Shown here: piece by piece, positions 7,377-31,412 of the stretch | How positions within the stretch are numbered: position 1 is the stretch's first letter | How the letters are laid out: the number at the start of each line of letters is the position of its first letter | From: Bacteroidales bacterium | Lineage (GTDB): Bacteria; Bacteroidota; Bacteroidia; Bacteroidales; UBA932 | Direction: 5' to 3' | Assembly (NCBI GenBank): GCA_017617715.1 | Contig: JAFZVQ010000059.1 | Coordinates: 1 to 43,315, forward strand | DNA: 43,315 nt | Notes under the pieces: model-generated | What the model saw: only the letters and a program-made list of their open reading frames with translations | What the model was told of the DNA's origin: nothing | The model's database searches: none | Translations under genes and position numbers: made by a program

Positions 7377-9266
7377 TCAATTCACTTCCGGTTCAACCTT
7401 GGTACCTATAGGCGCCATGCGGCTGTTGTCGTTGTACCACCACACTCTGTTACCACTGGTCCAATGGTCTGGCAGGACAAGTAAATTAAGATTCGGCGGC
7501 GTTCCGTAGGTATTCAAGACAAAGACAAACACGAACAGATTGTCACGGTTGTAGGTGTTTTTCAGCGTTCCGTTATAAGTAAACGAAGTTGTGGCGCCAT
7601 CGGACGGGATACTGAACGTTTCGTAATCATATAGACCGGAGGTAAACATGATACGCGCGATGTAATCGTGGTTGCCGCCGCCCGACTGGGGATACTGCTG
7701 TATACTCACGTTCCTTTCAACCAGCATCGCTACAATGCAGTAAGATCCGGCCATCGCACCGTATACATCCACGTCAACCTTGATGTTGTCGCCGTCAACC
7801 GTGGAAGCTACGCCGATAGAGGTAACGGGCCGGTAATAATCGTTGGTGTTGGAAATGGCAGACCTGATATCGGTCAGCATCTTTTCTGCGTCGCTTATAT
7901 TGTTCAGTATCTTTGTGCGTCCGTCGATAAAGCCATTGGGATGCGCGCTAACAGAGTAACATCCGCTCAAAACTGTGGGGAATGAGTAGAGCTTGCTGTC
8001 TTTCGCATGGATTACCGCATAGTTGAAAGAGTCGCCCATTTCCGTTTTTATAGCCTCGAAGGCATTAGTCATAGAGAAACTCTTTTGACAGGTCGTGGAT
8101 GTGAAAATGACGCCGGAATTATGCCTGACGGGGATAACAGCCCTTGAGCAGGCGGCCTGAGTGACGGTGAAAGTCTCGGTCTGGCCGTCAGAGGAGAAGG
8201 AAATGGTACCATTGCGCTCCGCCCCGTAATTAGCCTTTACAAGGAAAGTGTAAGTGCGGCCGAATTTGGTGTCGCCCTTGGAGTCGGAAAGGACAAGCCA
8301 ATCGCAGTCGGGCGTAACGTTGATGTCCGAGAAAGAAGTGGCGACGACATCGAAGGATTCGGCGTAATCCGAAGCATTGATACTCGTTGACGAAATGGAG
8401 AGCGCGTTATCCTCCCACTCAAGGCCTTTGTCTGCCTCCATGAGGGTGCGGAAGCATGCACGCTTGATTTCTACCTGCTTGTCTATCTTACGGCGGAGGA
8501 TTTTTCCGTCGGAGCGCTCGAACAGCAAATCGAAGCCTTCATAGGTGTGGGGGAGCATGACGAAATAATAGTCCGCCCCTGTTTCGAAGGTGCCGCCATC
8601 GGCCGGGACTAAATCTATGATAGATTCCTCCGGTTTATTCTGGCTGTTCCAGTAAGCGATTATTTTGCCGGCGCGGGAATCATAATCCAAACTGACTATT
8701 CCGGCGAGGCGGTCGTCATTGTAAGCCTTGACATAGGCTTTGGTGACGCCAGGGGTGGTCAGGGAGAATTTTATGCCTCCCAGAGGATGGTTGAACACCA
8801 GTTCGTCGGTCGTGGTTGTGGCAGCGGCTATGTAGAGTTTGTCCGGGAATGTACCGGCCACCGCAGTTTGGTGGAACGGCAGCACGGCACTTCCGCTGAA
8901 CTCATAATAGCTGTCCATTATGATATTTTCTTCATCGTAGGGATAAATAGCCCAAATCTGTGAGTACTCGGAATCCGGCATTATACCACGGAACTCTGCG
9001 GAAGCCGCAGGCTCATTATTGGTGGACACAAACTTGTTTCCGCCTTTTACCCACGATCCGGAACCGGTCTTTCTCACTACGCTGATAGCTTCTCCCGGCG
9101 ACCAGAACACCTTGCCGTCCGCCTGGCGGACAGTCTTTGAGGCATCGTCGCTGCAAACGGCACGCAGGATTACTTCCTCTCCATCGGGGGTCACGGAAAA
9201 CTCTGGTTTATCGACACTGCAGGCACACGCCACAAGCACAAGTGCAAAAATGTATAATTTTTTCAT
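7377..9266 (-). CDS. multidomain lipoprotein: fimbrillin-like module, BACON, Omp28-like C-terminus
   Basis: The product has 629 residues. It has a lipoprotein signal (MKKLYIFALVLVACAC). Residues about 30-285 form a fimbrillin-like module: K-T near 44, W-S-P-G-E, Y-P-Y, a P-x2-Q-T-A segment and a G-G-I-K-F strand. The same module begins the proteins at 10896 and 27189. A BACON domain follows at about 300-375 (C-D-W-L-V-L then F-T-V-T-Q). The last 240 residues resemble the Omp28-related outer membrane family by the pattern of an A-M-L-V-E-R strand, Y-P-Q, N-H-D-Y-I-A-R and a late F-V-F-V-F-V-L-N strand. The thioredoxin-like CxxC usual in that family is not visible. A 44-codon ORF ends 12 nt upstream. 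The Omp28 link is tentative. Confidence 0.8.
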   Translation of the reverse strand: MKKLYIFALVLVACACSVDKPEFSVTPDGEEVILRAVCSDDASKTVRQADGKVFWSPGEAISVVRKTGSGSWVKGGNKFVSTNNEPAASAEFRGIMPDSEYSQIWAIYPYDEENIIMDSYYEFSGSAVLPFHQTAVAGTFPDKLYIAAATTTTDELVFNHPLGGIKFSLTTPGVTKAYVKAYNDDRLAGIVSLDYDSRAGKIIAYWNSQNKPEESIIDLVPADGGTFETGADYYFVMLPHTYEGFDLLFERSDGKILRRKIDKQVEIKRACFRTLMEADKGLEWEDNALSISSTSINASDYAESFDVVATSFSDINVTPDCDWLVLSDSKGDTKFGRTYTFLVKANYGAERNGTISFSSDGQTETFTVTQAACSRAVIPVRHNSGVIFTSTTCQKSFSMTNAFEAIKTEMGDSFNYAVIHAKDSKLYSFPTVLSGCYSVSAHPNGFIDGRTKILNNISDAEKMLTDIRSAISNTNDYYRPVTSIGVASTVDGDNIKVDVDVYGAMAGSYCIVAMLVERNVSIQQYPQSGGGNHDYIARIMFTSGLYDYETFSIPSDGATTSFTYNGTLKNTYNRDNLFVFVFVLNTYGTPPNLNLLVLPDHWTSGNRVWWYNDNSRMAPIGTKVEPEVN

Positions 9267-9278
9267 CGTCCGGTCCTC

Positions 9279-9413
9279 CTAGAAAATCAGTTCATCATAA
9301 GTATCCTCGAGGCTTCCCGGGATGCCTGTGCTCTGGCACAGCAAAAAAACCGGCAATAATTCTTCTGACGAAAAATCCGGCTTGTCGTAAGGCATTTTCA
9401 TTGTATGATTCAT
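9279..9413 (-). CDS. small ORF (44 aa) of the Y-x2-P-x11-[IL]-L-C-x-S group
   Basis: This short gene starts at ATG 9413 (alternatives ATG 9401 or 9395) and ends with TAG at 9279-9281, 12 nt before the downstream lipoprotein ATG. The peptide contains Y-D-K-P and, exactly 11 residues later, L-L-C-Q-S, and ends in an acidic and hydrophobic tail. The same residues at the same spacing occur in the small ORFs at 10739 and 27051, each also directly ahead of a lipoprotein with the shared fimbrillin-like module. There is no signal peptide or membrane segment. A candidate promoter box (TATCTTTG, minus) lies at 9421-9428, which would put the transcript start close to this ATG and may favour 9401 as the true start. 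Function unknown. Confidence 0.65.
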   Translation of the reverse strand: MNHTMKMPYDKPDFSSEELLPVFLLCQSTGIPGSLEDTYDELIF

Positions 9414-9480: not shown

Positions 9481-10734
9481 ATGCAACAGCACATTGATTC
9501 CTACGATTTCACCGGCAAAAAGGCGATCGTACGCGTGGACTTCAACGTCCCCCTCAACGAGAATTTCGAAATCACCGACGACACCCGCATCCGTGCGGCA
9601 ATGCCCACCCTCAAGAAGGTGCTCGCAGGCGGTGGTGCCCTCATAATCATGTCCCACCTCGGACGTCCGAAGGGAGTGGCCGACAAGTTCTCCCTCCGCC
9701 ACATTCTCGCCCACGTGTCCGAATGCCTCGGAGTGCCCGTGAAGTTCGCCCCTGACTGCCAGAAGGCACAGGCCGAAGTCGCGGCCCTGAAGCCCGGCGA
9801 GGCCCTCCTGCTCGAGAACCTCCGCTTCTACGCCGAGGAGGAAGGCAAGCCCCGCGGACTCGCCGAAGATGCCTCCGACGAGGAAAAGAAGGCCGCGAAG
9901 GCTGCCGTCAAGGCTTCCCAGAAGGAGTTCGTCAAGACCCTCGCCTCCTACGCCGACTGCTACATCAACGACGCTTTCGGCACCGCCCACCGCGCCCACG
10001 CCTCCACCGCCCTCATCGCCGACTACTTCCCTGAGGACAAGATGTTCGGCTACCTGATGGAAGGCGAAATCAAGGCTATCGACAACGTGCTCAAGAACGC
10101 CCAGCACCCCTTCACCGCTATCATCGGCGGCAGCAAGGTGTCCAGCAAGCTCGCAGTGCTCGAGAACATGCTCGAGAAAGTGGACAACCTCATCATCGGC
10201 GGCGGCATGGGCTACACCTTCATCAAGGCCGAAGGCGGCAAGATCGGCAACTCCCTGCATGAGGACGAGCTCATCCCCCAGGCACAAGAAATCATGGCAA
10301 AGGCAAAGGAGAAAGGCGTCAACATCTACCTTTCCGTCCAGACCCTCGTGGCCGACGACTTCAGCGCCGACGCCCACACCCAGATCGTTCCGTCCCATGA
10401 GATTCCCGAGGGCTGGGAAGGCGTCGATGCCGGTCCCGCTTCCCTCGAGCGCTGGGGCAAGGTGATCCTCGACTCCAAGACCGTCCTCTGGAACGGCCCC
10501 GTGGGAGTGTTTGAAATCGCTCCTTTCGCAGGCGGCACCCTCAAGATCGCCGAATTCCTCGCCAAGGCCACCGAAAAGGGCGCCTACACCCTCGTGGGCG
10601 GCGGTGACTCCGTCGCAGCCGTGACCCAGATGGGCTTCGCAAAGAAGGTCAGCTACGTGAGCACCGGCGGCGGCGCCATGCTCGAAGCCCTCGAAGGCAA
10701 AGAACTCCCCGGTATCGCAGCAATCAACAAATAA
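9481..10734 (+). CDS. pgk: phosphoglycerate kinase
   Basis: The product is a 417-residue cytosolic glycolytic enzyme that transfers phosphate from 1,3-bisphosphoglycerate to ADP. Diagnostic motifs are all present: V-D-F-N-V-P-L-N near residue 20, S-H-L-G-R-P-K-G near 60, I-G-G-S-K-V-S-S-K in the middle, G-G-G-D-S near 375, and the C-terminal S-T-G-G-G-A-M-L-E signature. Length is normal for the bacterial enzyme. Codon use is strongly biased, as expected for a highly expressed gene, and this bias also creates long non-coding open frames on the opposite strand. The gene is divergent from the lipoprotein operon. The next small ORF starts 4 nt after its stop, so a pgk transcript may read into the micropeptide and lipoprotein genes. 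Confidence 0.98.
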
Positions 10735-10738
10735 TACC

Positions 10739-10882
10739 ATGATAAAAAAGACAATGCGCTACAGCGCACCTGAATCGGAAGTCCTCGTAATAGGGTTCGG
10801 GGACATTCTGTGCCAAAGCCCGCAAAACGGCGAAGACATCAATGACCCTGTCAACTGGTCCGGTCGCGATGGCTGGAGTTAA
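10739..10882 (+). CDS. small ORF (47 aa) of the Y-x2-P-x11-[IL]-L-C-x-S group
   Basis: ATG at 10739-10741, TAA at 10880-10882, 47 codons. The peptide has a basic start (MIKKTMR), then Y-S-A-P, 11 residues, I-L-C-Q-S, and a polar tail rich in Gly, Asp, Asn and Trp. It lies 4 nt after pgk and ends 13 nt before the preferred ATG of the large lipoprotein (1 nt before an alternative ATG at 10884), an arrangement suited to translational coupling. The same motif and layout recur at 9413-9279 and 27051-27182. No signal peptide is visible; the hydrophobic stretch before the Cys is too short and interrupted for a lipobox. I do not know a named family or function for it. Confidence 0.75.
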   Translation: MIKKTMRYSAPESEVLVIGFGDILCQSPQNGEDINDPVNWSGRDGWS

Positions 10883-10895
10883 TATGGACACGACC

Positions 10896-13529
10896 ATGAA
10901 AAAGATCAGCATCATCGCATTGCTCGCCATGGCAGCCATGGCCGCATTCTCCTGCAAGCAGGAAGCCGCAATCGAAGAGGCCACTGCCACCAAGGTGGTG
11001 ACCGCCTTCACCGACCAGGACGTCACCCCCGACACCAAGACCACCCTCAGCGGTGTCACGGTGCTCTGGTGCTCTACCGACGAGGTGGTGGCCAGCGACG
11101 GCAACAACAACCTCTACACTTCCACCGGCACCACGGTCAACGAGTCCGGCAAGAAGGCTGAATTCACCTTCAGAGGCTTCCCCGCCACGGCCGGCATCGG
11201 CATCCTGGCCTATCCCGCCGCTTCAGTGACCGCGATCGACGACAAGGCTATGGTCGTCAGCGCCTCCATTCCCACCGTCCAGACCGCAAAGGCCGACAGT
11301 TTCGCCGAAGGCGCCAACCTCTCAGTAGCCACAGGTGATGTCGAGACGCCCATATTCAGGAATGCCGGCGGCCTGCTCAGCCTCAAGATCAAGAACGACA
11401 ACATCAAGTCCGTGAAGCTTGTCGCCAACGAGCCCATGACCGGCGGCACCGCCCAGGTGTCCGCTGTGGCCCCCTACGGCACGCAAGTGTCCGGCGGCGA
11501 GTGCGAAGTCGAGCTGGCCGGCGGCCTCAGGAACGGCGTGACCTACTACGCAGTAGTGTATCCCGGCACCTACACCGGCCTGACCATATTCATCAACGAC
11601 AACGACGGCCGCACCGCCACCTACACCAACCCCAACGCCCTCACCGTGGAGCGCAACGCCAACCTCTTCATCGCCGAACTGACCGTTCCCGACAGCAAGT
11701 GGGAGAAGGTTGAAAAGGGCGACACATGGGCGTACACCTTCACCAGCAAAGCCATCACCGCCACCGGCGACGTAGTGCTTTCCGGCACCACCGACCAGAC
11801 CTGGACAGTGGCCGGCGACGGCGACTACTTCGGCTATGACGGCACCAAGGGCCAGCAGCTCGGCTCCGGCAGCGCTCCGTTCACCACCCTGTCGCTCAGC
11901 ACCAACTTCGGCAAGACCTTCGGCGTCACCGACGTGATCCTGAACACCTCCGGCGCTTCCAGCATCGCAGCCACCCTGTCCGTCTCCGTTGGCGGCACCG
12001 ACTTCGTGTATGACGGAGATCCCACGGCGCCCGTGACATCCGTCGCCCTGACCAACGTCGCCACCGAATACAGGTTCGTGGCAGCCGACGGCGGCCTCCA
12101 CACCGGCGACATCGTGGTCTCGTACGAGCAGACCTCATCCAAGGCCATCTACTTGAAGAGCATCACCGTGAACCCCGACACCCGCGAGCAGGTTGCGACT
12201 CCTACGTTCACCCCTGGAGCAGGCGTGGTCAGCGCCGGCACCGTGGTGACCATTTCCACCACCACCTCAGGTGCGACCATCTACTACACCACCGACGGCT
12301 CCACCCCGACAGCGAACAGCACCTCCGGCACCAGCGTCACCGTAAGCGACGGCATGACCATCAAGGCCTTCGCGGTCAAGGACGGCATGCGTGATTCCGA
12401 AGTCGCGAGCGCGACCTACACCGTGGGCACGTCCAACGGCGACGGCACCTTCGAGCACCCGTTCAACATCGCCGGCGCCAAGGGTTACATCGACAGCGGC
12501 AAGACCGATGCGGTGTACGTGGCCGGCATCGTCTCGAGCATAGTGAAGCAGTACAACGCCGAATTCGGCAACGCCCAGTTCTGGATTTCCGACGACGGCA
12601 AGACCGACGATTTCGAGGCCTACAACGCCTACTTCCTCGGCAACAAGTCCTGGACCACGGCCAACAACGTGATCAAGGTCGGCGACGCCGTGGTTCTCTA
12701 CGGCAAGCTCACCAAGTACAACACCACCTACGAGACGTCCAACAAGAACGCCTATCTCTACTCCCTGAACGGATCCACTGTCGATGACGTTCCGGTGGTC
12801 ACGAAGACCGACATCACCGGCGTGTCCGCCGACGGAGTGTCGAACCAGACTACCACCGTGACCATTGATGGCGGCACCGGCTGGACCGCATCCGTCGCCG
12901 CCGACGGCACCGTCGTGACCGCCGCCTCCATCTCCGGCACCACGATCACCTATTCGGTGGCGCAGAACACCGGCTCCGCCCGTTCCGGCGCCATCACCTT
13001 GACGCTCACCAACAACGCCGATGCCACGCGAGTCCTGACCGAAACTATCACCGTGTCCCAGCTTGGCTCCGGCTCCGCCGCCCACGCGTACGTCAAGGTG
13101 ACGGACACCAAGGATATCACCGACGGTGATTACCTGATAGTCAACGAGACTGCCGGTGTGGCATTCAACGGAGAATTGTCGAGCTTCGACTCGGCCGGAA
13201 ACGTGATTTCCGTCAAGATTTCTTCCGGAAGCATCGAGGCCACCGACGCCGTGAATAAAGCCAGGTTCACCATCAACAGCATGTCTGGCGGCTATTCTAT
13301 TTGCGGCACCAGCGGCAAGTACATCGGAGTGGATGGCTATAGCAATGGCCTGAAGACCAAGAATGACGCAGTTGCTAATGCCATATCCATAAGCTCAGGC
13401 AACGTTCTCATCTCCATCACCTTCTCCGAAGGCACGATGACGCTGAAGTACAACAAGTCCAGCGACCAGAACCGCTTCCGCTACTACAAGTCCGGCCAGC
13501 AGAACATCCAGCTCTACAAGTACCAGTAG
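10896..13529 (+). CDS. multidomain lipoprotein: fimbrillin-like module, CHB_HEX_C-like, OB-fold-like, BACON-like
   Basis: The product has 877 residues from the ATG at 10896, which gives a clean lipoprotein signal (MKKISIIALLAMAAMAAFSC, Cys20). In-frame ATGs at 10842 and 10884 would only add an untypical leader. Domains in order: a fimbrillin-like module at about 30-260 (K-T-T, V-L-W, Y-P-A, V-Q-T-A-K-A-D-S-F-A, G-G-L-L-S-L-K-I); an insert of beta structure; a chitobiase/hexosaminidase C-terminal-like repeat (Y-Y-T-T-D-G-S-T-P-T); an OB-fold-like domain (V-A-G-I-V-S-S-I, later G-K-L-T-K-Y); a BACON-like domain (G-W-T-A-S-V, then I-T-V-S-Q-L-G-S); and a final beta-rich domain with G-K-Y-I-G-V. 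No catalytic motif was seen, so adhesion or ligand binding at the surface is likely. Confidence 0.85.
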   Translation: MKKISIIALLAMAAMAAFSCKQEAAIEEATATKVVTAFTDQDVTPDTKTTLSGVTVLWCSTDEVVASDGNNNLYTSTGTTVNESGKKAEFTFRGFPATAGIGILAYPAASVTAIDDKAMVVSASIPTVQTAKADSFAEGANLSVATGDVETPIFRNAGGLLSLKIKNDNIKSVKLVANEPMTGGTAQVSAVAPYGTQVSGGECEVELAGGLRNGVTYYAVVYPGTYTGLTIFINDNDGRTATYTNPNALTVERNANLFIAELTVPDSKWEKVEKGDTWAYTFTSKAITATGDVVLSGTTDQTWTVAGDGDYFGYDGTKGQQLGSGSAPFTTLSLSTNFGKTFGVTDVILNTSGASSIAATLSVSVGGTDFVYDGDPTAPVTSVALTNVATEYRFVAADGGLHTGDIVVSYEQTSSKAIYLKSITVNPDTREQVATPTFTPGAGVVSAGTVVTISTTTSGATIYYTTDGSTPTANSTSGTSVTVSDGMTIKAFAVKDGMRDSEVASATYTVGTSNGDGTFEHPFNIAGAKGYIDSGKTDAVYVAGIVSSIVKQYNAEFGNAQFWISDDGKTDDFEAYNAYFLGNKSWTTANNVIKVGDAVVLYGKLTKYNTTYETSNKNAYLYSLNGSTVDDVPVVTKTDITGVSADGVSNQTTTVTIDGGTGWTASVAADGTVVTAASISGTTITYSVAQNTGSARSGAITLTLTNNADATRVLTETITVSQLGSGSAAHAYVKVTDTKDITDGDYLIVNETAGVAFNGELSSFDSAGNVISVKISSGSIEATDAVNKARFTINSMSGGYSICGTSGKYIGVDGYSNGLKTKNDAVANAISISSGNVLISITFSEGTMTLKYNKSSDQNRFRYYKSGQQNIQLYKYQ

Positions 13530-15147: not shown

Positions 15148-18100
15148 CTAAATGTCTCGGACGCAGCGGGGCGTTGTCACAGTGTGGGAGGAGTTGGGAT
15201 TGGCCATGAGGAGTTTCTGCGTACTCATGCCCCAACCCCATCGATTATTCACCTTACGGGTGCCATCCGAGCCAAAAGACCAGTGCGTGCGGGAAGGGAA
15301 GAAATTGCCTTTGATGAATGTCTTATCACTCTTACTGTCATTAGCGCCTACATACAGTCTGGGAATAATAGTCCATAATAGTGCCAATTCACGGACATTA
15401 GGAAGACGGTAGCCAGTTGGACAAACATGGAACTCGGAATCAAGGCCGTCAAAATTCATATCCAAATAGTCATTTAACGGTTTGGCCCACTTAATTTCGT
15501 ATGTGGTTCCATTAAAGGTATGACTTTCAGGAATGGCTGAAGTCGTGGACACAGGAGCTGTTTCGAAACCGCGCGAAAGACATGCCATCTTGCTGTTCTC
15601 ATCATGTCCGACCAATTCATGAATGACAGGCTCCCGCAAGGATGTAGTATTAATGCGAGAACAATCAAACCTGAAAAAAACGTTAGCAGTATAGTCCCCG
15701 GTATAATCAGTCGTAATGGAACCATCAGTGTTGAGTAACATACGATGAGGGACAACAAAGGATTCAGGTATCACATCAGCAGGCGCAAAAGAAATATCCT
15801 TAATTGTTCCGTTATCATTATAATAGCCCAAGTTGCGCACACAGCGGGTGCTGAAAACTCTCGTCTGTTCCTTATTATTATCCCAATAACTGTAGTGGCT
15901 ACCGTTGATGCCCTCTTCGGCCCATACAGTACGTACAAAGGCATTGCTGTTGCCTGCGCCGTATGTGGAGATATCATCGGCTTTAATTTCACCCTGGAAT
16001 TGATTGCTGGCCAGGATGTGCTGACGCCAAACATCCGTAACATTGCTTGACTGCTGCTCAGCAGACCTTTGATATAAACGCGCATCACCTTCAATACCGT
16101 AAGAGCCCATGAAGATTCCCATCAACTGGATATCTGAGGCCATATACCAGCGGATTTCCTCCGGATCGATTATGCCGTCGCCATCGTTATCACGGTTACG
16201 GGACAAGCAACTATATCGAAGATAATTATAATCCTCTCCATGGGGGCCGGGGCTGGTGCTGCTCCACAGTCTGGATGTTGTATTTTCCGCTCTCAGATTG
16301 AGATAGTGATCCCACCGGCTCTCCTCATAGGAGCGATGCCCAGGGCCATCACCGACAGGGATTTCCACCCCATCTGGATCATATATTTTCCAGATTTTTA
16401 ACGTATTCAGACGTCCGTTTTCCAAACTGGTATTGCCATTGTTTTCATAGTCCTTGTTTTTCCAATAGGTCGATTCTCCTGTTTCCAAATCATCATCCTC
16501 AAACTCAAGGCCCCATGCGGATGCCAAACCAGCAGCCTCTTGAATGGCATAGATACTCTGGATAGAGCGCTGCTGCAAAGTAAAGGACGAGCCAATCTTC
16601 ATGCTCTCTCCATCTGCAGACTTGCTCTGGGAAGAAAGAATATGCATACGACGCATAGGCTGGTTGACCATGTGTGTCTTCCAAAGGGTTGGAATGTATA
16701 CATTGGTGAGTGGATGCTTCTCATAGTAAAACTCGCTGACAAAGGCCGTCACTGAAATCTTAGGTCCTGAAGGATCATTGTCAAAATCGTTGTTAGGCTC
16801 AAAATCCGGGTCATAGCCAGGGTCGCCCGGCTGCAAAGCCGCTTTCGCCTTGTCAATATCATATTGCTGCTTCTGGTGCCTCAGGTAATCCACCAACTCA
16901 TCGACATACATGGTCCGTGTCTTGTCCGTGCGGTCTAATCCATAATAATCCGGATGGTCATGCGGTTTATAAACAAAGCGCTGATTAGCATAATAATTAT
17001 TGTTCGACGGATCAATGTCATTGACGTGAAACTCCACCCATTTATAGTCAAGCTTTGTAATACTTGTGGGCGGGCCATCACCATCCGGATTGAATGGTGT
17101 TTCCACATACCAGCTGATACCGTCGGGGTCAGCCATATAATCGGCATGAAAAGAAATAACCTGAGTACAGTAATGGCAATCGCAGTCGAATACCTCCTCC
17201 ATAGCCACAACTACCTTTCCAGTTGCACCAGGCTCATTCTCTGCCAGGCTTCCGGAGCCACCATCATTAGCTTCCACTTCCGCACGGATGTCCGAAGCGC
17301 CGTTGATAAAAATATTGTAAATGTATTTATGATTGCGGAGAATGCTGAAATCTCCGAAACTGCCACCGTGGGCAACATCAAAATTACCAAGATGGATGAC
17401 ATACCTGACATTGGCATCCAATGTGGCATTATCGTTCGTCACCTCATTAGCTTCTCCGGCATTGAGGGTATTACTGATGTTCATCACTATCTTGCCCGTG
17501 ATGACTACGTATGTGGAACGAGCGTCGGCATATTCAAAAGCTCCGTTACTGAATAGATAATACGTCCCTCCATGACTATCCAAACTGCCAATATCAGGTT
17601 TTACCTGCCTGTCCCTGAATGGATAGGGATTATAATCACCCGGATCATCCAAACTCCCGTTACTATTTGCATCGTTAGCTACCCAGCCATTGGTCGGGGT
17701 TTTGATTGGAGCCTTTCGGTTCTCCATCATATAAAAGGAGAAACTATGTGTGGATACTTTGGTCACACCGTCAGCATAAACGTCTCCAGGTTTGGATGTG
17801 AGCGTTTCTTTCTCAAAACCGACAGCGTCCGTCGAGAAAAATTGATCGGGGAGAACAGTCGCAGCGTCATCGTAGGGATCTGATGAAGACGCCGGGGTCC
17901 TTTCCAGCAGGTAACTACAGAGCGGTACGTTGACCACCTGCCACCTGTCCGGAGTAAACGATCTGATAGAAGCCCCTTCCGTAATACGAACATTGAATGT
18001 GACTTTTGCGTACAAGCGGTGAAGAATCAACGTTTTGCCATTGATATGATTGGCCGCAGAAGGATTACTTGAAATTGTAACACCATCCACCAGTCCGGTC

Positions 18101-18654
18101 ATCATGAAATAACCCGAATTGGCGGCAACCTCACTTCGCACCTGCGCCGCCACCATATTTTCTACTTCGGAAAGGGTTTTTACAGTGGAGAGCAATTCGG
18201 GCGAAACATCAAGATCTTCCGGATTCATATTAGCGACAGCAACCACGGTGCAACCTGTTGCGCTGGATGTCTTGATATGAATGGTACCATTAGTGGTAGG
18301 AGAGGTATCAGTTGCCATATTGGCAACCGTCCAATAATTGGAAATGCCCGCAGAGGCCAAGCTGCCATCCTGATCCAGATTGGAGCCCTCAAAATAATGC
18401 CCGTAAATCTTTTTATTCGAACTGTCGAAAACTAACAAATAAATATTGTAGACATTAGATTCCTGAGCCATTGTCAGCTGGCCGCGGGTCATAACGCTCA
18501 CGTCGGGACTAGGAGTGCCGAAAGGGATAACGACATCAACCATGCCGTCTTCATCGGCGGAATTATCATTTTCCCATCCTATTTCTTTAGTACATGCGCA
18601 CACGCATACGAATGCGGCCAGAATAAAGACGATATTTATCAGAATCCTTTTCAT
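15148..18654 (-). CDS. DUF4906-type large fimbrial-locus lipoprotein
   Basis: The product has 1168 residues from the ATG at 18654, chosen because it gives a lipoprotein signal (MKRILINIVFILAAFVCVCAC). The longer open frame to 18762 lies within the upstream gene. After the signal comes a fimbrillin-like N-terminal region (V-Y-N-I-Y-L-L-V-F-D), then long beta-rich and Asp/Asn-rich regions. The C-terminal part carries C-P-T-G-Y-R-L-P-N-V-R-E-L and two T-x-x-C-V-R repeats, which are typical of DUF4906 proteins of Bacteroidales fimbrial loci. By position and size it may be a tip or adhesin component; this is inference. It is the last gene of the operon, 7 nt after the preceding stop. Its codon use is visibly more AT-rich than pgk or rpsP. 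Confidence 0.82.
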   Translation of the reverse strand: MKRILINIVFILAAFVCVCACTKEIGWENDNSADEDGMVDVVIPFGTPSPDVSVMTRGQLTMAQESNVYNIYLLVFDSSNKKIYGHYFEGSNLDQDGSLASAGISNYWTVANMATDTSPTTNGTIHIKTSSATGCTVVAVANMNPEDLDVSPELLSTVKTLSEVENMVAAQVRSEVAANSGYFMMTGLVDGVTISSNPSAANHINGKTLILHRLYAKVTFNVRITEGASIRSFTPDRWQVVNVPLCSYLLERTPASSSDPYDDAATVLPDQFFSTDAVGFEKETLTSKPGDVYADGVTKVSTHSFSFYMMENRKAPIKTPTNGWVANDANSNGSLDDPGDYNPYPFRDRQVKPDIGSLDSHGGTYYLFSNGAFEYADARSTYVVITGKIVMNISNTLNAGEANEVTNDNATLDANVRYVIHLGNFDVAHGGSFGDFSILRNHKYIYNIFINGASDIRAEVEANDGGSGSLAENEPGATGKVVVAMEEVFDCDCHYCTQVISFHADYMADPDGISWYVETPFNPDGDGPPTSITKLDYKWVEFHVNDIDPSNNNYYANQRFVYKPHDHPDYYGLDRTDKTRTMYVDELVDYLRHQKQQYDIDKAKAALQPGDPGYDPDFEPNNDFDNDPSGPKISVTAFVSEFYYEKHPLTNVYIPTLWKTHMVNQPMRRMHILSSQSKSADGESMKIGSSFTLQQRSIQSIYAIQEAAGLASAWGLEFEDDDLETGESTYWKNKDYENNGNTSLENGRLNTLKIWKIYDPDGVEIPVGDGPGHRSYEESRWDHYLNLRAENTTSRLWSSTSPGPHGEDYNYLRYSCLSRNRDNDGDGIIDPEEIRWYMASDIQLMGIFMGSYGIEGDARLYQRSAEQQSSNVTDVWRQHILASNQFQGEIKADDISTYGAGNSNAFVRTVWAEEGINGSHYSYWDNNKEQTRVFSTRCVRNLGYYNDNGTIKDISFAPADVIPESFVVPHRMLLNTDGSITTDYTGDYTANVFFRFDCSRINTTSLREPVIHELVGHDENSKMACLSRGFETAPVSTTSAIPESHTFNGTTYEIKWAKPLNDYLDMNFDGLDSEFHVCPTGYRLPNVRELALLWTIIPRLYVGANDSKSDKTFIKGNFFPSRTHWSFGSDGTRKVNNRWGWGMSTQKLLMANPNSSHTVTTPRCVRDI

Positions 18655-18661
18655 GCCGAAA

Positions 18662-20446
18662 TCATTTAAATGTATGGGTTGGCGAGGCGTTTGCAGCTGC
18701 CCAGGCGTCAGTCCATGTGGAATTATCCACCTGGAAACTAAGAGTTCCGTCAATTGCGGCATAATAGACGTTAATTACAACGTTAATGCTTTCATTTCGT
18801 GTCATGTGCACGAGAGGCACCGCCTTGTGGCTATCACTCTCCAGGCGGCTGAGAAGGCCGCCGAAATCTTTCAATTCTCCGAAGAAAAGATACTGACGGT
18901 CTTGTTTTGGACCATCAGAAGCTGGACTATTTGTCGTTCTCAAAAATGACTTTTTAGCGTCATCAGCGTTCGATTGAATATATCTCTTGTTTCCACTCAC
19001 AATCTGATACATACGGACAAGGTTTTCCCCATTCAAATCTGACGGAAACTTCGTTTTATCGTTAATCGCTCCCTTTTCAAAATAAAGGCCAGTTATACTC
19101 GATCCAGAAACCGGGTTGTTGGCGGAAGTACTTAGGGCAAGGCCGTCTATTTTATAATTCCCGCCGGCTAACTTACTCAGCCTTCTGAAATAAGTTGATC
19201 TGGCACCGGTGTAATCAAATGTTGCACTCTGGGAAGCATTTGAATCAATGCCATTCCATGCAGAATAACCGGAATTGGAGGTGCCCGTACCAGTATATGA
19301 ATAATCTACATAGGTGAAAGGATTCGTTTCCTCGTATATGGCTTCCATACGAGAAAAGAGAGGCGCATATGTGGCATACCCCGTACTTTCCCATGCCAGG
19401 TTCGTGCCCCCGATAGCATAATATAGACGCCCGTATCGAGTGTTTTTTTGCGGGTTGACCAAGAGAATGTCCACTCCTTCCCCTTCGTCTATTGCACACA
19501 ACGTCGAATAGTTCAGTACGCCGAAAGGCCTGTTACCAAGACTGAGTTCCAAGTTGGACAAGCCCTCAGAAGAACGGTCCAGAGTAAGCTTGGCATATAC
19601 CTTATAAACGTTGGTTGAGACCCCTTCGTACATGTATTGGGAATAAACTACACTTTCGGTATTTGCACTAACCGTCACAGAATTCTGCGCATAAGCCGGC
19701 ATTGTCCTATATGTTACACCGGCAGGGACAACAGGAAGGCCGTCACCGTCTTTACGTTCAATCAAATATGCCTTGTCCGGATTAATGTGGCTGAAGGACA
19801 GCTCTTTCACTTTTACCGGATACGAGGTGCTGTTGTTGACTATTACGTTGAATTGTACAACCGGACGATGCAGGTCAATGGTTGCCGATGCCGTGGAAAT
19901 GCCTAATGGAATCTCCACATGTCCGGTCAACAACATTGAACTGGAAGGGCTTCCGGGCACATTTGTGCCCGTCATAGTCTTCAATTGTTTATCGATAAAG
20001 CCTGAAAAAGAATCGCCGACCGAAACTTTGGCTTCTTCACCAGTCGAGCCAATTTGATGAGATCCATCCTGCCACGTCGTATCGTCATAATTGGCATAGG
20101 CGTAGGCATGGTAATTGCCGGGAAGCAAGCTGCTGAAGGATATGACATCATTGGTTTGTGGGCTATTGGAATAATCATCCGCCAACGCTTTAGTGACTAT
20201 ACCTACTACTTTACCGGTATTATCTGTCAAGACGACAAGAAGGTTATTGAATTGTCCGCCGTTGAGCGTGGTTGGAGTGTAAGCTTTTGTCTCCAGGCTG
20301 ATTTCATCCCGCGAATCGACAAAGAGGATGATACTGCTTCGCTCCGACGCAGAAGACTTATCAGTGGAATCCAGCTCTTTCTGACAGGATTCCACCGCAA
20401 GGAGTGCGGCGCCAAGCGTCAATATTATCATCCATTTTCTCATCAT
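18662..20446 (-). CDS. FimB/Mfa2-like fimbrial subunit lipoprotein
   Basis: The product has 594 residues. It has a lipoprotein signal (MMRKWMIILTLGAALLAVESC). The N-terminal domain reads F-N-N-L-L-V-V-L-T-D and L-L-P-G-N-Y-H-A-Y-A-Y-A-N, the usual pattern of FimB/Mfa2-type anchor or accessory subunits. A second domain starts near residue 170 with H-V-E-I-P-L-G. The start ATGATG overlaps the TGA of the upstream fimbrillin gene by 4 nt, so the two are translationally coupled. In characterised type V pili such subunits anchor the fibre or limit its length. Which of these applies here cannot be read from sequence. Confidence 0.75.
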   Translation of the reverse strand: MMRKWMIILTLGAALLAVESCQKELDSTDKSSASERSSIILFVDSRDEISLETKAYTPTTLNGGQFNNLLVVLTDNTGKVVGIVTKALADDYSNSPQTNDVISFSSLLPGNYHAYAYANYDDTTWQDGSHQIGSTGEEAKVSVGDSFSGFIDKQLKTMTGTNVPGSPSSSMLLTGHVEIPLGISTASATIDLHRPVVQFNVIVNNSTSYPVKVKELSFSHINPDKAYLIERKDGDGLPVVPAGVTYRTMPAYAQNSVTVSANTESVVYSQYMYEGVSTNVYKVYAKLTLDRSSEGLSNLELSLGNRPFGVLNYSTLCAIDEGEGVDILLVNPQKNTRYGRLYYAIGGTNLAWESTGYATYAPLFSRMEAIYEETNPFTYVDYSYTGTGTSNSGYSAWNGIDSNASQSATFDYTGARSTYFRRLSKLAGGNYKIDGLALSTSANNPVSGSSITGLYFEKGAINDKTKFPSDLNGENLVRMYQIVSGNKRYIQSNADDAKKSFLRTTNSPASDGPKQDRQYLFFGELKDFGGLLSRLESDSHKAVPLVHMTRNESINVVINVYYAAIDGTLSFQVDNSTWTDAWAAANASPTHTFK

Positions 20447-21531
20447 TCGAAAATGATATCGTCCGTAGTTACCTGAACCTCATCCCAGGGGACAGTCCGC
20501 ACAGTAATATTCACGCCACTACGGCTCAAATCAACATAATAATTATACACATAGTTAGGGTTCCATGATACTCCCGCCACATCCAACTGATTCAAAACGC
20601 CATAGAAATTCACCTCTGAAGTAATGGGCGCTTCATCGTTGTATGCAACAGAGTACCGCAGGGTCACATCAGTAGATAAATTCTGCGGAATCATGTAATA
20701 CCACCCCATCTGAAGATAATCATCGGGGTCGCTGGTGTTCGCAGGATACGGAACCTCCTTCCTTGTGGTCGGATCCGACGAATCGGCACTCCAGGAATGG
20801 ACGGTGGTGACCACGCCATCCGTCCATTGTCCTAACGTTATCGCCGGATTATCTCCCACGAGATGTGCATCCACCCTTAAGCTACCATTGGCCACCACAT
20901 TATCCAAGCTAAAACTCGTCAGGTAATAGTGGTCAGAAGCATCGGAAGAGGCCTTGGAGAACAGGAAACGAACTGCAGCTGTCGCATGATTAAAATATAA
21001 TGGAACCGGATTCTTACCCTGGTCTGCAGGCTTTCGGGATGCACGCGCCACCATAAGGTCACAGTTTTTGCTTGCCTGATGAACAACAGTGAGATGGTAC
21101 ATGTCATCTTTGTATATTTCCGCCGATGATGGGTTGTATGGGAAAACAGCCGCAAAACAGTAAATACCATTATCCTTCCAATACTTCAGCGGGGTATAAT
21201 TCCACACACTGTGGTTATGATCCAGATTCCCATCATTATCTATATCAAGGACATCATCGCAAGTCAGTTCTTCGTTGGTAAAAATAGAAATCGGATTCAA
21301 GTTAATAACTTCTTCCCAAATTCCGAAAACACTCACATGTTTATTGAAATCCACAAGAACGGTGGAATCTGCAGGAACTTCCGATCCTGTCTTTGTGTGT
21401 ACCGAAACATCGGGAGCTGAGAACAGAATGGGACTCCCGGTTCCTTCGCCCGCCGAAGAAGACAGAGGCTCCCTCTCACATCCGGCAAGCAGTGCGAGCA
21501 CAACAGGCAGTATGTACGGGAAAACTCTCAT
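20443..21531 (-). CDS. fimbrillin-family lipoprotein (third pilin-like gene)
   Basis: The product has 362 residues with a lipoprotein signal (MRVFPYILPVVLALLAGC, Cys18). The fimbrillin hallmarks are a T-K-T-G-S turn after the signal, F-G-I-W, W-N-Y-T-P-L-K-Y-W followed by a C-F-A-A-V-F-P-Y strand, then H-A-T-A-A-V-R-F in the second domain, and a terminal T-V-P-W-D strand. It lies 2 bp after the previous fimbrillin gene and overlaps the next by 4 nt. It has diverged considerably from its two upstream paralogues (N-Y-T-P-L rather than Y-S-P-[IL]), suggesting a minor or accessory pilin. Confidence 0.82.
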   Translation of the reverse strand: MRVFPYILPVVLALLAGCEREPLSSSAGEGTGSPILFSAPDVSVHTKTGSEVPADSTVLVDFNKHVSVFGIWEEVINLNPISIFTNEELTCDDVLDIDNDGNLDHNHSVWNYTPLKYWKDNGIYCFAAVFPYNPSSAEIYKDDMYHLTVVHQASKNCDLMVARASRKPADQGKNPVPLYFNHATAAVRFLFSKASSDASDHYYLTSFSLDNVVANGSLRVDAHLVGDNPAITLGQWTDGVVTTVHSWSADSSDPTTRKEVPYPANTSDPDDYLQMGWYYMIPQNLSTDVTLRYSVAYNDEAPITSEVNFYGVLNQLDVAGVSWNPNYVYNYYVDLSRSGVNITVRTVPWDEVQVTTDDIIFE

Positions 21532-21533
21532 GT

Positions 21534-22601: not shown

Positions 22602-22620
22602 TCTGAGCGCAGCGAAGAAT
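22596..22620 (-). repeat. interspersed repeat, copy 4, overlapping a fimbrillin start codon
   Basis: On the minus strand this is the standard repeat (ATTCTTCGCTGCGCTCAGAA then TGACA). The terminal AATGACA contains the ATG at 22601 that begins the best lipoprotein signal of the second fimbrillin. In the longer reading frame the repeat is translated as F-F-A-A-L-R-M-T. Confidence 0.85.
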
Positions 22621-22650
22621 CCGTATGCCTTTTCCGTCTTCATACTTGGC

Positions 22651-22680
22651 ACCCAGGCGGGCGGTCAGGCCCGCTTGGGT
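22651..22680 (-). promoter_or_regulatory. strong hairpin between first and second fimbrillin genes
   Basis: ACCCAGGCGGGC (22651-22662) pairs with GCCCGCTTGGGT (22669-22680), a 12-bp stem with one wobble pair and a 6-nt loop. It begins 14 nt after the stop of the first fimbrillin gene in transcription order. No T-run follows, so it is more likely an mRNA-stabilising or attenuating structure than a full terminator. This would raise the yield of the first pilin over downstream subunits. Confidence 0.75.
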
Positions 22681-22693
22681 AAAAGAACATAAC

Positions 22694-27050: not shown

Positions 27051-27182
27051 ATGAATACCACTTCACAGTATTTCGCCCCGTCGCTCAAAATTACTTATGT
27101 GACCACCCGCTCCATACTCTGCGATTCTGAAACATATCGGCCCCAGAATGAAGGAACCACTCTCCACGAGAACGAATTATAA
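27051..27182 (+). CDS. small ORF (43 aa) of the Y-x2-P-x11-[IL]-L-C-x-S group
   Basis: ATG at 27051, TAA at 27180-27182, ending 6 nt before the ATG of the 1407-residue lipoprotein. The peptide reads Y-F-A-P, 11 residues, I-L-C-D-S, then a polar and acidic tail. Spacing between the Pro and the I-L-C is identical to that in the small ORFs at 10739 and 9413. A strong promoter lies directly upstream, so it should be transcribed. It has no signal peptide or transmembrane segment. Function unknown; a leader peptide, a secreted peptide or a cytosolic partner of the lipoprotein are all possible. Confidence 0.75.
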   Translation: MNTTSQYFAPSLKITYVTTRSILCDSETYRPQNEGTTLHENEL

Positions 27183-27188
27183 GCGACC

Positions 27189-30100
27189 ATGAGAAATTTC
27201 AGGCTCTGCGCAGGCGTCTTACTGGCCTGTGCTATCAGTGCTTGCGTGCACGAAGAACCTGCGGAAGTTGATAATCCGCAGACTCCCGCCGAAGGAGTTG
27301 AAATCACCATAACCGCCAGCGTGGACCCTACGCTCGGAGGCTCCAAGACCATAAGGGACGAGGCCACCGGAGACATTCTCTGGACGCCAGGCGACCGCAT
27401 CAGCGTCTTCTCCGGCAGCGGCAGCGGCGGCGGTGCTGAATTCATCTCCAGCGCCACAGAAAACGCCGCCGTCACGGATTTCACCGGCACCATTGCCCGT
27501 GACCCCTCCAGCTGGCTCTGGGGCTTATACCCCTACTCTGCATCCAACGCATGCGAAGGCGATGTGGTCACGATGACCCTCCCGGACACCCAGACCGCCC
27601 AGGCCGGTTCGTTCGCTCCCGGCTACTTCCTGTCGGTGGGCCGGACCATGGACGACGACATGACCTTCCGCAACATCTGCGGCGGCCTGCGCATCCAGGT
27701 TATGACGGAAGGGGTGAAAAGGGTCACCCTACGCAGCCAGGACGGCCCTATCGCAGGCGAGGCCCTGATAGCACTGGACGCAGACGGAGTGCCGTATGTG
27801 TCTGAATTCACCGACGGGAAATCTGAAATCGTGCTCGCGGCGCCGGACGGGCAGTCGCTTGCAACGGACCGCTATTACTACTTCGCCGTCTTCCCGCACC
27901 ACTTCGCCGAAAAGTGCTTCTCGCTGACTTTCGAGACCGACACCCAGATAGGCACCTACGAAAGGAATTCCACTTTCGACATCACCCGCTCCGTCATAGA
28001 AGGATTCCGGGTGGCGGTGGATTCAAGCACTGAATACAAGACCATCAGCGGCCGTATAAGCACGGCCGAGCAGTTCATACAGTTCATCACGGGCACCCCG
28101 TCATCTCCCGGCAGCGCGCCTGCAATGGAGACGGCCGGCATCAAAGCGGCCGACGTCGTAGACCTGTACGTCATCGATGCCGACATCGACCTCACCGGTT
28201 GGACGGCAACGGCCGCCGCCAGCTTCGACGGCACACTCGACGGCTGCGGCCACACCATTTCCGGCCTGCAGAGCGGCGTGCCGCTGTTCACCACCCTGAC
28301 CGGATGCGTGAAGAACCTTACCTTCGACAGCAGCTGCAGCTTCACGGCTTCGGTGAAGCATTTCGGAACCGTTGCCGGGACCAACAACGGCACTATTTCC
28401 AATGTGAAGAATTATGCTCCGATATCGCGTGTGGATGACGGTAATGTAAAGGAATACAAACTGGTGGCCGGTATTGCCGGTTGTTCCACCGGCACGATCA
28501 CGGGCTGCCAGAACCACGGCAACATCAGTTCCCAGGTCGGCGGAGGCTCCGTGGCCATAGGCGTGGCCGGTGTTGCCGGCTACTCAGCAGGGCCGATGAG
28601 GAACTGCGACAACTACGGGCAGGTGAGTTTTTCCGCTTCCTATATCTATGGAATGGTTCAAATGCTGGATATCACCACCAATACCGCTCTTCCAAGCATT
28701 GGCGGAGTCGTGGCTTATGGCGCTCCCGGATTCAGCATGGACAACTGCGACAATCACGGCAAAGTCAGATTCTCGCTGACAGCAGCAGACTCCCATACAA
28801 CTAAGTTGAACCGCAGTCAAGTCGGAGGAGTTGTCGGATCTCCCTGCGGCCCTGTGTCCAACTGTGATAATGAAGGAGAAGTCAATGTTTCCGTCAAGCA
28901 CAGCACCCCGGGAACGCCACTTTCACAAGAAACGATTTTCCACGTGGGTGGCATAGGTGGTGGAGATTATAATTTCACAAGTAAGGATGACATAATTTCC
29001 AACACCAGCTACACCAATTGCACTAACCGCGGAAAAGTTATCGTCGATTCCGATGCCTCCGCATCAAACACCGCAATAGGAGGCATAGTTGGCTGGCCGG
29101 GACAAGAGGTCGCCAATCCAGGCACATCTGTCAGCGGCTGCGTCAACCACGGAGAAATCATTGGACGCGGTGCAATGAAATGCCGTATCGGAGGTATTGA
29201 AGGAGGCACAGGAGTCATTTTGAATTCCCATAACTATGGAACAGTGAAAGTCGAATCTGCAAACACTGAGTCCGCAGTAGGCTCTCTTTGTGGATTCCAC
29301 AGTCAAAACCATTCCATAGTAGGTAGCACAGCAGGAGGGAAGGTTATTACCAATGTCAGCCTGACAGGAGGCGTAGGGGGGCTGATAGGCAACATAGGGA
29401 ACGCCGGCCATACTACTGCATTTGACTGTGAAGTCACTTGCGCGATTACAGTCACGGACTATGATATCAACACGATGGGACTGGTAATCGGCAAGTTCAG
29501 CGGCGCTAGTTACTTCATCTGGCTCGGATCGCACGATTCTCCCATACGGGTGAGCGGAAGTATCAATGGAACCGCTGCAAATACAGGCAATATTTACGGC
29601 ATCGGTAATTACAACAGCAACGTCCACGTCATCCGCACTAATCTGGATCCTGGCTCTGTAGAGCCGCAGCCAACTCCCGCACCTGCGCTAACCGAATCAT
29701 CAATCAACGGTACCACTATACTGGGAAGCTCCGACACTGCCGGACTCATTACCGACTCCACTACCGGTCTGGGAATTCCCGGAGTCCCCGTCAGCGACGG
29801 CTACAGTTTCACGGTCACGGACGCCAATGGCGTGTACCAGATGCAGCGCAATCCTCTCAGCCGCAAGATTTACTACACCACTCCCGCGGCCTACGAAATC
29901 AACCTGGACAGCACCAACCATTATCCGGAGTTCTTCACCCCAGGGATCATCAACTCCGAGACCGGCCGCATACGCGCCGACTTTACGCTGACTCCGCTCG
30001 CCACGCCTGAAACCCAGTTCACGCTTCTATGTGTGGGTGATCCCCAGTGCTACCGGGATTCGGAAGCCTCCCGATATGAAGCAGAGACTATAGTAGATAT

Positions 30101-31412
30101 CCAGGAAACGGCCAACAAGCCGCAGTATTCCAATGTGTATGTGATGACTCTTGGCGACATCACCTTCGACAGCTACAATATGTGGGACAGGATGAAGACC
30201 ACCATGTCTAACGTCACCGAATCCAACGGGCGCTATATTCCTTTCTTCCAGACCATCGGAAACCATGATCACGATTCTACGGTCAATCCGGCTTCCAACA
30301 GGTATGAAAGCGACTACAATGCCACGATGAAATACACCAAGACCTTCGGCCCCACCGACTATTCCTTCGACAGGGGAAACGCGCATATCGTTTCCATGGA
30401 CAACGTTATGGTAAAGAGTCTGAAAACGACCACCAAACCCAACGGCCGTTCCTGGGAATATGACGGAGGCTTGACCAACGAACAATACAATTGGCTCTTG
30501 GATGACTTGAGCCACGTGGATAACATATCTGAAAAGATTGGAATTTTCTGTTTCCATATTCCATTTCGTGGTAGCGGAAAACTAGGTGGTGCTTCTGTAT
30601 ATAAGAATTATAATTATGCCAATGTCCTGCAACAGATGTCCCGATTCAAAGAGGCGCACCTGATGATAGGTCACACCCATTATCAGCAAAATTGGATACA
30701 TAACTCCAAAGACAGTAACGGCAATTACAAATACGCTGGTACAGGTGGCCTGCCACATTATGAGCATATCCACGGCGCCGCCTGCGGAGCATGGTGGCAA
30801 GCCAGTTGCAGTTCCACCAAGACAGGAGAGCCGTCAGGGTACACAATCTATGAGATCGACGGTGCCCATATCAAAGACTGGCTCTTCAAAGGCACCCGAA
30901 GGGATCCGGATTTCCAATTACGCGTATATGACGGAAATGATATCTATTATGCCACCAAGTCATATTCTCTGAATTGGTACACTATCTCTCAATCTGCCGG
31001 CGCGGACGTTATCACAGTATATGGAGCCACCGAACTTCAATACTGCTTCGTGGCCCAGCTGTTCGACGACAGCCAGGGCGGAGACTGGACAGTGAAAATG
31101 TACAGAAAAAGCACTGGAGAGGAGATTGGTACTTTCGAACATCTTCCCGACAAGAGCTGTACTAACGTGGCAATAGTATCGTATTGGTTCAATGTAAAGG
31201 GAAAAAACTCAGACGCCTGGTCCAACAATACTGCCAGCCACTACTGGTATTATAAACCTGATGGAGTAGAAACATACGATCCGTCTTCTGAAACCGACTG
31301 GGAGGTAAGGGCCACCCATAACATCCCAGGAGGCAACGTATCCCACACCTTCACCTGCTCTGAAATCACCAGGGAAGCCGATTTCGCCAAGGAGTTCTAT
31401 TTTGGTAAGTGA
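27189..31412 (+). CDS. giant lipoprotein: fimbrillin-like module, beta-repeat domain, MetallophosN/C calcineurin-like phosphoesterase
   Basis: The product has 1407 residues. Lipoprotein signal MRNFRLCAGVLLACAISAC. Residues about 50-290 form the shared fimbrillin-like module (K-T-I-R, W-T-P-G-D-R-I, L-Y-P-Y, D-T-Q-T-A-Q-A-G-S-F-A-P-G, C-G-G-L-R-I-Q). About 310-820 is a repeat region in which C-x-N-x-G-x-[VI] and G-G-[IV]-x-G units alternate, GLUG-like and probably a beta-helix. A MetallophosN-like linker (G-I-P-G-V-P-V-S-D-G) precedes the phosphoesterase: G950-D951, G989-D990, G-N-H-D at 1024-1027, His1123 and G-H-T-H at 1161-1164, so all five metal motifs are present. The last 170 residues match MetallophosC. 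It probably acts at the cell surface on a phosphoester of unknown nature; the repeat region may bind glycan or another surface. Confidence 0.9.
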   Translation: MRNFRLCAGVLLACAISACVHEEPAEVDNPQTPAEGVEITITASVDPTLGGSKTIRDEATGDILWTPGDRISVFSGSGSGGGAEFISSATENAAVTDFTGTIARDPSSWLWGLYPYSASNACEGDVVTMTLPDTQTAQAGSFAPGYFLSVGRTMDDDMTFRNICGGLRIQVMTEGVKRVTLRSQDGPIAGEALIALDADGVPYVSEFTDGKSEIVLAAPDGQSLATDRYYYFAVFPHHFAEKCFSLTFETDTQIGTYERNSTFDITRSVIEGFRVAVDSSTEYKTISGRISTAEQFIQFITGTPSSPGSAPAMETAGIKAADVVDLYVIDADIDLTGWTATAAASFDGTLDGCGHTISGLQSGVPLFTTLTGCVKNLTFDSSCSFTASVKHFGTVAGTNNGTISNVKNYAPISRVDDGNVKEYKLVAGIAGCSTGTITGCQNHGNISSQVGGGSVAIGVAGVAGYSAGPMRNCDNYGQVSFSASYIYGMVQMLDITTNTALPSIGGVVAYGAPGFSMDNCDNHGKVRFSLTAADSHTTKLNRSQVGGVVGSPCGPVSNCDNEGEVNVSVKHSTPGTPLSQETIFHVGGIGGGDYNFTSKDDIISNTSYTNCTNRGKVIVDSDASASNTAIGGIVGWPGQEVANPGTSVSGCVNHGEIIGRGAMKCRIGGIEGGTGVILNSHNYGTVKVESANTESAVGSLCGFHSQNHSIVGSTAGGKVITNVSLTGGVGGLIGNIGNAGHTTAFDCEVTCAITVTDYDINTMGLVIGKFSGASYFIWLGSHDSPIRVSGSINGTAANTGNIYGIGNYNSNVHVIRTNLDPGSVEPQPTPAPALTESSINGTTILGSSDTAGLITDSTTGLGIPGVPVSDGYSFTVTDANGVYQMQRNPLSRKIYYTTPAAYEINLDSTNHYPEFFTPGIINSETGRIRADFTLTPLATPETQFTLLCVGDPQCYRDSEASRYEAETIVDIQETANKPQYSNVYVMTLGDITFDSYNMWDRMKTTMSNVTESNGRYIPFFQTIGNHDHDSTVNPASNRYESDYNATMKYTKTFGPTDYSFDRGNAHIVSMDNVMVKSLKTTTKPNGRSWEYDGGLTNEQYNWLLDDLSHVDNISEKIGIFCFHIPFRGSGKLGGASVYKNYNYANVLQQMSRFKEAHLMIGHTHYQQNWIHNSKDSNGNYKYAGTGGLPHYEHIHGAACGAWWQASCSSTKTGEPSGYTIYEIDGAHIKDWLFKGTRRDPDFQLRVYDGNDIYYATKSYSLNWYTISQSAGADVITVYGATELQYCFVAQLFDDSQGGDWTVKMYRKSTGEEIGTFEHLPDKSCTNVAIVSYWFNVKGKNSDAWSNNTASHYWYYKPDGVETYDPSSETDWEVRATHNIPGGNVSHTFTCSEITREADFAKEFYFGK

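Follow-up and report, generated by a model that had tools for sequence, protein, structure and literature searches.

Short YxxP peptides encoded beside fimbrillin-like lipoproteins in Bacteroidales: probable precursors of a lasso-like export pathway

Lasso peptide precursors carry the motif YxxPxL in their leaders and the pathway's B1 protein is PqqD-like, and some lasso clusters include kinase, nucleotidyltransferase and ABC exporter genes, according to the parts consulted of two papers (PMC10368454, PMC7533575), the second of which, in its rumen survey, places such clusters only in Firmicutes. Here we consider a stretch of 43,315 nucleotides from a Bacteroidales bacterium (contig JAFZVQ010000059.1; the window), in which three genes for short peptides with YxxP in their heads each lie directly ahead of a gene for a large lipoprotein. 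Such peptides, of roughly 45 residues, form a large family in gut bacteria, and we consider it probable (roughly 60%) that they are precursors of a leader-guided, lasso-like export pathway without ring-forming steps, the exported tail pairing with the adjacent surface lipoprotein.

The likeness to lasso systems lies in the YxxP of the peptide heads, the xL part not being general here, in a stand-alone PqqD protein closest to lasso B1 proteins, and in the kinase-like, nucleotidyltransferase and ABC exporter genes found in the same cassette. The differences are a Ser-His signal-peptidase-like protease in the cassette, and precursors that number up to tens in a genome and are each accompanied by a lipoprotein. 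Neither B2 (transglutaminase-like) nor C (asparagine-synthetase-like) was recognised in ten cassette loci, judged by eye from gene maps with whole genomes not searched, and when the tail is taken to start after CxS, only 6 of 114 tails have Gly1 with D or E at positions 7-9. With neither B2 nor the cyclase seen at these loci, and the core pattern lacking, the peptides do not qualify as lasso peptides. They are also like precursors of pathways for ribosomally synthesised and post-translationally modified peptides (RiPPs) guided by a RiPP recognition element, with a generic leader, a variable core, and leader protease and exporter genes predicted by sequence.

The bicistron in the window, the genome and the genus

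An earlier note on this DNA had proposed three short open reading frames (ORFs) with a shared motif of identical spacing, each 6-13 nt ahead of a lipoprotein gene. All three are present where it placed them, the gaps are 13, 6 and 12 nt for peptides 1, 2 and 3, and the lipoproteins have the common N-terminal module that it described, of about 285 aa. The motif, Y-x2-P-x11-[IL]LC-x-S, has exactly three matches with the same spacing in the six frames of the window, one in each peptide, against 0.005 expected by chance (200 first-order Markov shuffles, with at most 1 in any). The features are as follows.

10739-10882, plus strand: peptide 1 gene, 47 aa
10739..10819, plus strand: peptide 1 head MIKKTMRYSAPESEVLVIGFGDILCQS, putative leader, from motif statistics of the collected peptides
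10820..10882, plus strand: peptide 1 acidic/aromatic tail, putative exported part, and stop
10896..13529, plus strand: lipoprotein 1, start MKKISIIALLAM...SC, with fimbrillin-like N-module and CHB_HEX_C_1 domain
27051-27182, plus strand: peptide 2 gene, 43 aa
27051..27128, plus strand: peptide 2 head MNTTSQYFAPSLKITYVTTRSILCDS
27129..27182, plus strand: peptide 2 tail and stop
27189..31412, plus strand: lipoprotein 2, with fimbrillin-like N-module and calcineurin-like phosphoesterase
9413-9279, minus strand: peptide 3 gene, 44 aa
9330..9413, minus strand: peptide 3 head MNHTMKMPYDKPDFSSEELLPVFLLCQS, with relatives at the same place beside the phosphoglycerate kinase gene in loci L040 and L049
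9279..9329, minus strand: peptide 3 tail TGIPGSLEDTYDELIF and stop
9267..9281, minus strand: peptide 3 stop codon plus 12-nt gap, TAGGAGGACCGGACG, ahead of lipoprotein 3 and including a Shine-Dalgarno-like GGAGG
7377..9266, minus strand: lipoprotein 3, with fimbrillin-like N-module, BACON and Omp28
9481..10734, plus strand: phosphoglycerate kinase (PGK) gene between bicistrons 1 and 3, the anchor for relatives (PF00162, E 1.3e-147)

The peptide 1 gene begins 5 nt past the PGK gene, and bicistron 3 diverges from the other PGK end. The start of lipoprotein 1 was taken as the ATG at 10896 (MKKIS...); its longest ORF begins at 10842, within the peptide 1 gene.

The window's contig belongs to a 2.32-Mb Bacteroidales genome, 77% complete (label G000). 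A profile built from eight peptides finds 27 peptides in it, and 27/27 are ahead of a lipoprotein with the fimbrillin-like module; one lipoprotein is preceded by two tandem peptides, hence 26 lipoproteins, all of which are in the module alignment or matched by its profile. Peptide matches at E 0.05 occur in 153 of 200 genus genomes, from 1 to 30 in each. Among 29 genus loci a script found 23 peptides, 22 preceding a lipoprotein and 1 cut off, the remaining six lying in clipped loci, where the script overlooked them. For the next 60 matches by E-value outside the source genome (one contig-edge match skipped), 60/60 have the motif and then a lipoprotein by scripted test, with a doubtful lipoprotein start in one (L300) and a lipoprotein without the fimbrillin module in another (L343), compared to 179/951 ordinary genes that pass a similar lipoprotein test.

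Relatives were also sought by way of PGK, taking the best 80 of 179 loci. These come from Bacteroidales or Bacteroidia, many rumen-derived and a few from Candidatus Cryptobacteroides, and the presence of peptides beside PGK varies among the first 18 of the 80 examined there. The 80 loci hold 11 peptides against 0.33 expected, and all 11 precede an ORF, 10 of which read as lipoproteins (8 by scripted test alone). The earlier note had looked to enrichment of the pairing in other genomes, and this is what the source genome and the 60 further loci display; its core claim of a real micropeptide-lipoprotein bicistron beyond chance is thus strongly supported, for a family far larger than it had described.

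As the peptides were collected by profile and pattern, those collected resemble the seed. A scan of 31 family members gave no Pfam or NCBIfam match, and no description of the peptide-lipoprotein pairing was found in the literature, judged by title and abstract; a term search of the main text of a Bacteroidales RiPP survey (PMC10352776) returned none of S24, lipoprotein or YxxP. At one locus (L274, genome G444) the reading frame of a YxxP peptide continues into a lipoprotein-like signal sequence, a natural fusion or an assembly error.

Generic heads, variable tails and the partner module

Among 114 distinct collected peptides Y is present in 114 and YxxP in 114/114, where the collecting pattern included YxxP and also accepted other residues at motif places (F, H or W for Y); Cys is kept in 110, Ser in 113 and the same spacing in 111. 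The motif Cys is specific to the genus, with A, G or others in its place in other families. The tails have a mean net charge of -4.2 and, in 104/114, an aromatic residue within the last six positions.

Head and tail differ in what they follow. Over 105 distinct pairs, similarity to the mature partner module correlates at r=0.59 for the tail and r=0.14 for the head, and head and tail similarities are independent of each other (r=0.02). The permutation test for the tail-module correlation was run on 107 pairs, left from 110 collected after dropping a tandem copy (L007), a cut-off pair (L154) and the doubtful L300. Once the module is accounted for, the tail correlates with the lipoprotein signal peptide at only 0.06, and therefore the tail-module link is not mere closeness. 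Two pairs of loci (L162/L304 and L339/L340) have a common head with different tails and lipoproteins.

Purifying selection, to which the earlier note had pointed as a check on its proposal, acts on both head and tail. The proportion of nonsynonymous differences (pN) is 0.21, and that of synonymous differences (pS) 0.55 in the head and 0.62 in the tail, for 35 pairs of distinct peptides (an initial 40, less five repeats); pN is lowered here because the pairs were chosen by amino-acid identity (at least 55%). Pairs beside PGK are a fairer sample, and their pN/pS values are 0.11/0.65 in the head and 0.16/0.61 in the tail for peptide 1 and L033, 0.22/0.36 and 0.13/0.64 for peptide 3 and L040, and 0.05/0.44 and 0.10/0.41 for L038 and L050.

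The partner module is, judging from profile alignment, a distant fimbrillin: set against homologues of PF13149 (Mfa_like_1, fimbrillin) it gives an hhalign probability of 96.6% over 208 columns. A single partner, on contig C17, exceeds the Pfam cut-off for PF13149, with a fimbrillin hint in 1/10 Pfam scans, and a PDB sequence search of the module did not recover the relation. This distant relationship is the likeness to the fimbrillin/Mfa_like_1 lipoproteins of type V pili, from which the partners differ in bearing other C-terminal domains and an upstream YxxP peptide. Ahead of canonical PF13149 lipoproteins a YxxP peptide was found in 0/30 loci, three of them with an unresolved start and one (L377) from the source genome itself. 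The window has a type V pilus-like cluster of its own at 15148-25776 on the minus strand, with a FimD-like protein of 1204 aa at 15148-18762 and PF13149 fimbrillins at 20485-21216 and 21561-22424; the six-frame window scan has no match to the strict peptide motif within it, and no relation was seen between the module and the FimD-like protein.

The module profile has 91 matches in the source genome. Of the 80 examined, 47 have a peptide directly upstream (by eye, diverged ones included), the other 11 being second fragments of one gene or genes whose peptides had been read already; with eight earlier-read genes added, about 55/88 module genes have an upstream peptide. Many of the peptide-less module genes sit a short distance behind another gene. 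Some 88 lipoprotein genes with one fimbrillin-like N-module and varied C-terminal parts are a striking expansion for a 2.3-Mb genome. At two loci (L351:1-5001 and L354:1641-5289, minus strand) some lipoproteins whose gene is followed by that of a further lipoprotein have at their C-terminus an acidic, aromatic stretch like a peptide tail.

Other families and the PqqD cassette

Beyond the genus, a general peptide profile matches 20/393 genomes of the order, and a scan of the phylum (296 genomes) gave only one match (G593) besides the source genome; because this profile is weak and short, counts in other families are lower bounds. The peptide is again ahead of a lipoprotein in family f55, often with GGAGGA in the gap, and likewise in f101, f113 and G593, which lies outside the order. 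In the Prevotella-like family f111 it is usually just behind a secreted-type protein: 8/9 peptides read in G111 are behind the partner and one is before, and in G492 and G410 4/4 are behind. Fifteen further f111 stretches comprise ten with the peptide behind a gene, four without a clear partner or with a distant one, and one without a peptide; two f111 peptides are ahead of a lipoprotein (G111 C30, G556 C5). The upstream G111 proteins mostly end like YNLAGQRV..KGLYIVNGKKVIVK, and many YxxP peptides of the family (L252-L258 of G111, L389-L402) end in W-x-D-D-E-like residues.

Ten PqqD-selected loci, from nine peptide-bearing genomes in four families, were surveyed for neighbouring genes. Near PqqD lie an ABC exporter in 10/10, a signal-peptidase-like protease in 9/10, an HprK-like protein in 8/10 and a nucleotidyltransferase in 3/10. 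The PqqD protein matches PF05402 (E 1.3e-14), and the best match of its profile in the PDB is TfuB1 (E 6.5e-6), the four matches also including TbiB1 and a further lasso chaperone; the exporter has ABC_membrane and ABC_tran domains. Ser35 and His73 are invariant in 15/15 sequences of the putative protease, whose best PDB relative is SEC11, a weak match (E 0.0045). The kinase-like protein keeps its P-loop in 10/10 and is assigned to HprK by weak family matches and motifs, its profile finding no convincing relative in the PDB. The kinase-like and nucleotidyltransferase genes suggest that the core may be modified. In the source genome there are two PqqD-ABC loci (L415 on G000 C27, L416 on G000 C64), with protease and kinase-like genes beside only one. 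Double-glycine export by a C39 transporter was considered and rejected for the genus, as C39 is present in 0/8 peptide-rich genomes; elsewhere the C39 peptidase exporter is absent from G111, G525 and G593, and G055 has one.

Cassette and peptide occur together. A PqqD-subtype profile matches 64/393 order genomes, 18/20 of those with peptides and 46/373 of the others; once the four genomes used as seeds for the profile are set aside the first figure is 14/16, and for genomes whose peptides were confirmed on reading it is 16/17. In the genus it is found in 140/153 peptide-positive and 30/47 negative genomes, and in 63/63 of those with at least 5 peptides. The two are also neighbours in three families besides that of the source genome, in the orders kinase-protease-PqqD-nucleotidyltransferase-peptide-lipoprotein (G548), kinase-like-protease-peptide-lipoprotein followed by PqqD-ABC (G586), and PqqD-peptide-kinase-like (G090).

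From the family and its pairing, the selection, the split into head and tail, the co-variation of tail and module, and the cassette with its co-occurrence and linkage, we infer the pathway proposed at the outset. The generic head (Y-x2-P ... CxS) would be a leader bound by the stand-alone PqqD-type recognition protein and probably cut off by the signal-peptidase-like serine protease; the HprK-like kinase, and in some families the nucleotidyltransferase, may modify the peptide, and the ABC exporter would carry the tail across the inner membrane. In each genome one or two cassette loci would handle all the precursors, which are scattered and number up to tens. The tail would pair with the lipoprotein encoded alongside, most likely by binding its fimbrillin-like module. 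Ribosomes that have finished the peptide probably go on to translate the lipoprotein by re-initiation, mostly 12-18 nt farther on and often at a Shine-Dalgarno (SD)-like site. Among the roles offered by the earlier note, which had described neither the cassette nor the division into head and tail, the best fit comes from combining two, a secreted peptide and a partner of the fimbrillin-like module.

Several points weigh against this proposal. The pathway is proposed here from sequences, and mature peptide, cleavage site and complex are all putative. Of the 20 peptide-positive order genomes, three (G008, G412 and G419) yielded no YxxP peptide on reading, and none was seen at the two source-genome PqqD loci. 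There is no PqqD match in 13/153 peptide-bearing genus genomes (none with more than 4 peptides, 12/13 less than 90% complete), nor in G492, which has 6 peptide matches, and PqqD occurs with no detected peptide in 30 genus and 46 order genomes. The plain Pfam PqqD model matches 18/20 genomes, peptide-rich and peptide-poor alike, unlike the subtype profile, which did separate the two. The co-occurrence counts ignore phylogeny, as does the tail-module correlation, which shared descent alone could yield. Finally, the tail-like extensions at lipoprotein C-termini, of which six cases were compared, gave one good match to the downstream partner and one weak, and are left out as evidence for that reason.

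Translation of the lipoprotein and other explanations

Bacteroidia ribosomes mostly fail to recognise SD sites, strong SD-like sites being described at rpsU and rpsR in the consulted part of PMC9976891. The lipoprotein genes resemble these two in having strong SD-like sites in a class that mostly ignores them, and differ in standing second in a bicistron, a short gap behind the first gene, with no ribosomal-protein link seen. The gap from peptide to lipoprotein has its mode at 12-15 nt, and an SD-like site, rare in this class, is found at 44/107 lipoprotein starts, whereas for the peptide starts the count is 1/107, for ordinary gene pairs lying close together 5/215, and for first genes 20/550; in the source genome it precedes 12/47 module genes with a peptide and 0/33 without. 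A -7 box of the Bacteroides type is present in the 150 nt ahead of 21/50 peptides; it occurs in 0/50 of the 135-nt stretches that end at the lipoprotein start, and in 0/50 control stretches inside the lipoprotein. The lipoprotein start is thus special and probably reached by re-initiation.

The same gap, SD-like sites and promoter boxes would be expected if the peptide were a mere translated leader, whose termination lets ribosomes re-initiate at the lipoprotein, perhaps with control by the nascent chain. We consider this unlikely. Such a leader should not have its amino acids under selection in head and tail, nor a tail that tracks the partner module, nor a link to the PqqD cassette, and in the Prevotella-like family most of the peptides read sit behind their partner. 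Coupling, the first role offered by the earlier note, is thus partly right, in view of the SD-like sites, and is unlikely to account for everything, given the selected residues, the tracking tail and the family with its peptides mostly behind.

Alternatively the peptide could be a cytosolic adaptor or chaperone, its head docking on a general export factor while its tail holds the cognate lipoprotein before secretion. A generic head with a partner-matched tail, encoded directly ahead of the lipoprotein, is what one would expect, and by eye no hydrophobic signal sequence is apparent in the three window peptides. However, an adaptor, which the earlier note had also suggested, explains the PqqD-protease-exporter cassette less well than export of the peptide does, and leaves its co-occurrence and linkage with the peptides unexplained, so that we think it quite unlikely. 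An exported tail could also be a toxin or signal of the bacteriocin type, with the adjacent lipoprotein as immunity or receptor protein: the export logic is the same, and the precursor adjoins a lipoprotein that its variable tail matches. The up to 30 matches per genome, the acidity of the tails and the large partners with enzyme-like domains all speak against this, and make it very unlikely. Chance ORFs are already refuted, as the counts in the window and beside PGK exceed expectation.

The lasso-like export pathway gives a Bacteroidales peptide family, with up to 30 matches per genome, a testable function, and would link the principle by which lasso leaders are recognised with the way surface lipoproteins are put together. 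The bicistrons also provide a gene set in which to study the role of SD sites in a class where ribosomes for the most part pass over them. A further suggestion, more tentative and in our view doubtful, is that a lasso-related pathway, its ring-forming steps lost, has been turned into a general surface-assembly system, in which one cassette exports dozens of short peptides, each, like a detached donor strand, docking on, capping or tethered to its own fimbrillin-like surface lipoprotein. Were this true, the surface proteins of these gut bacteria would be peptide-decorated complexes of two parts.

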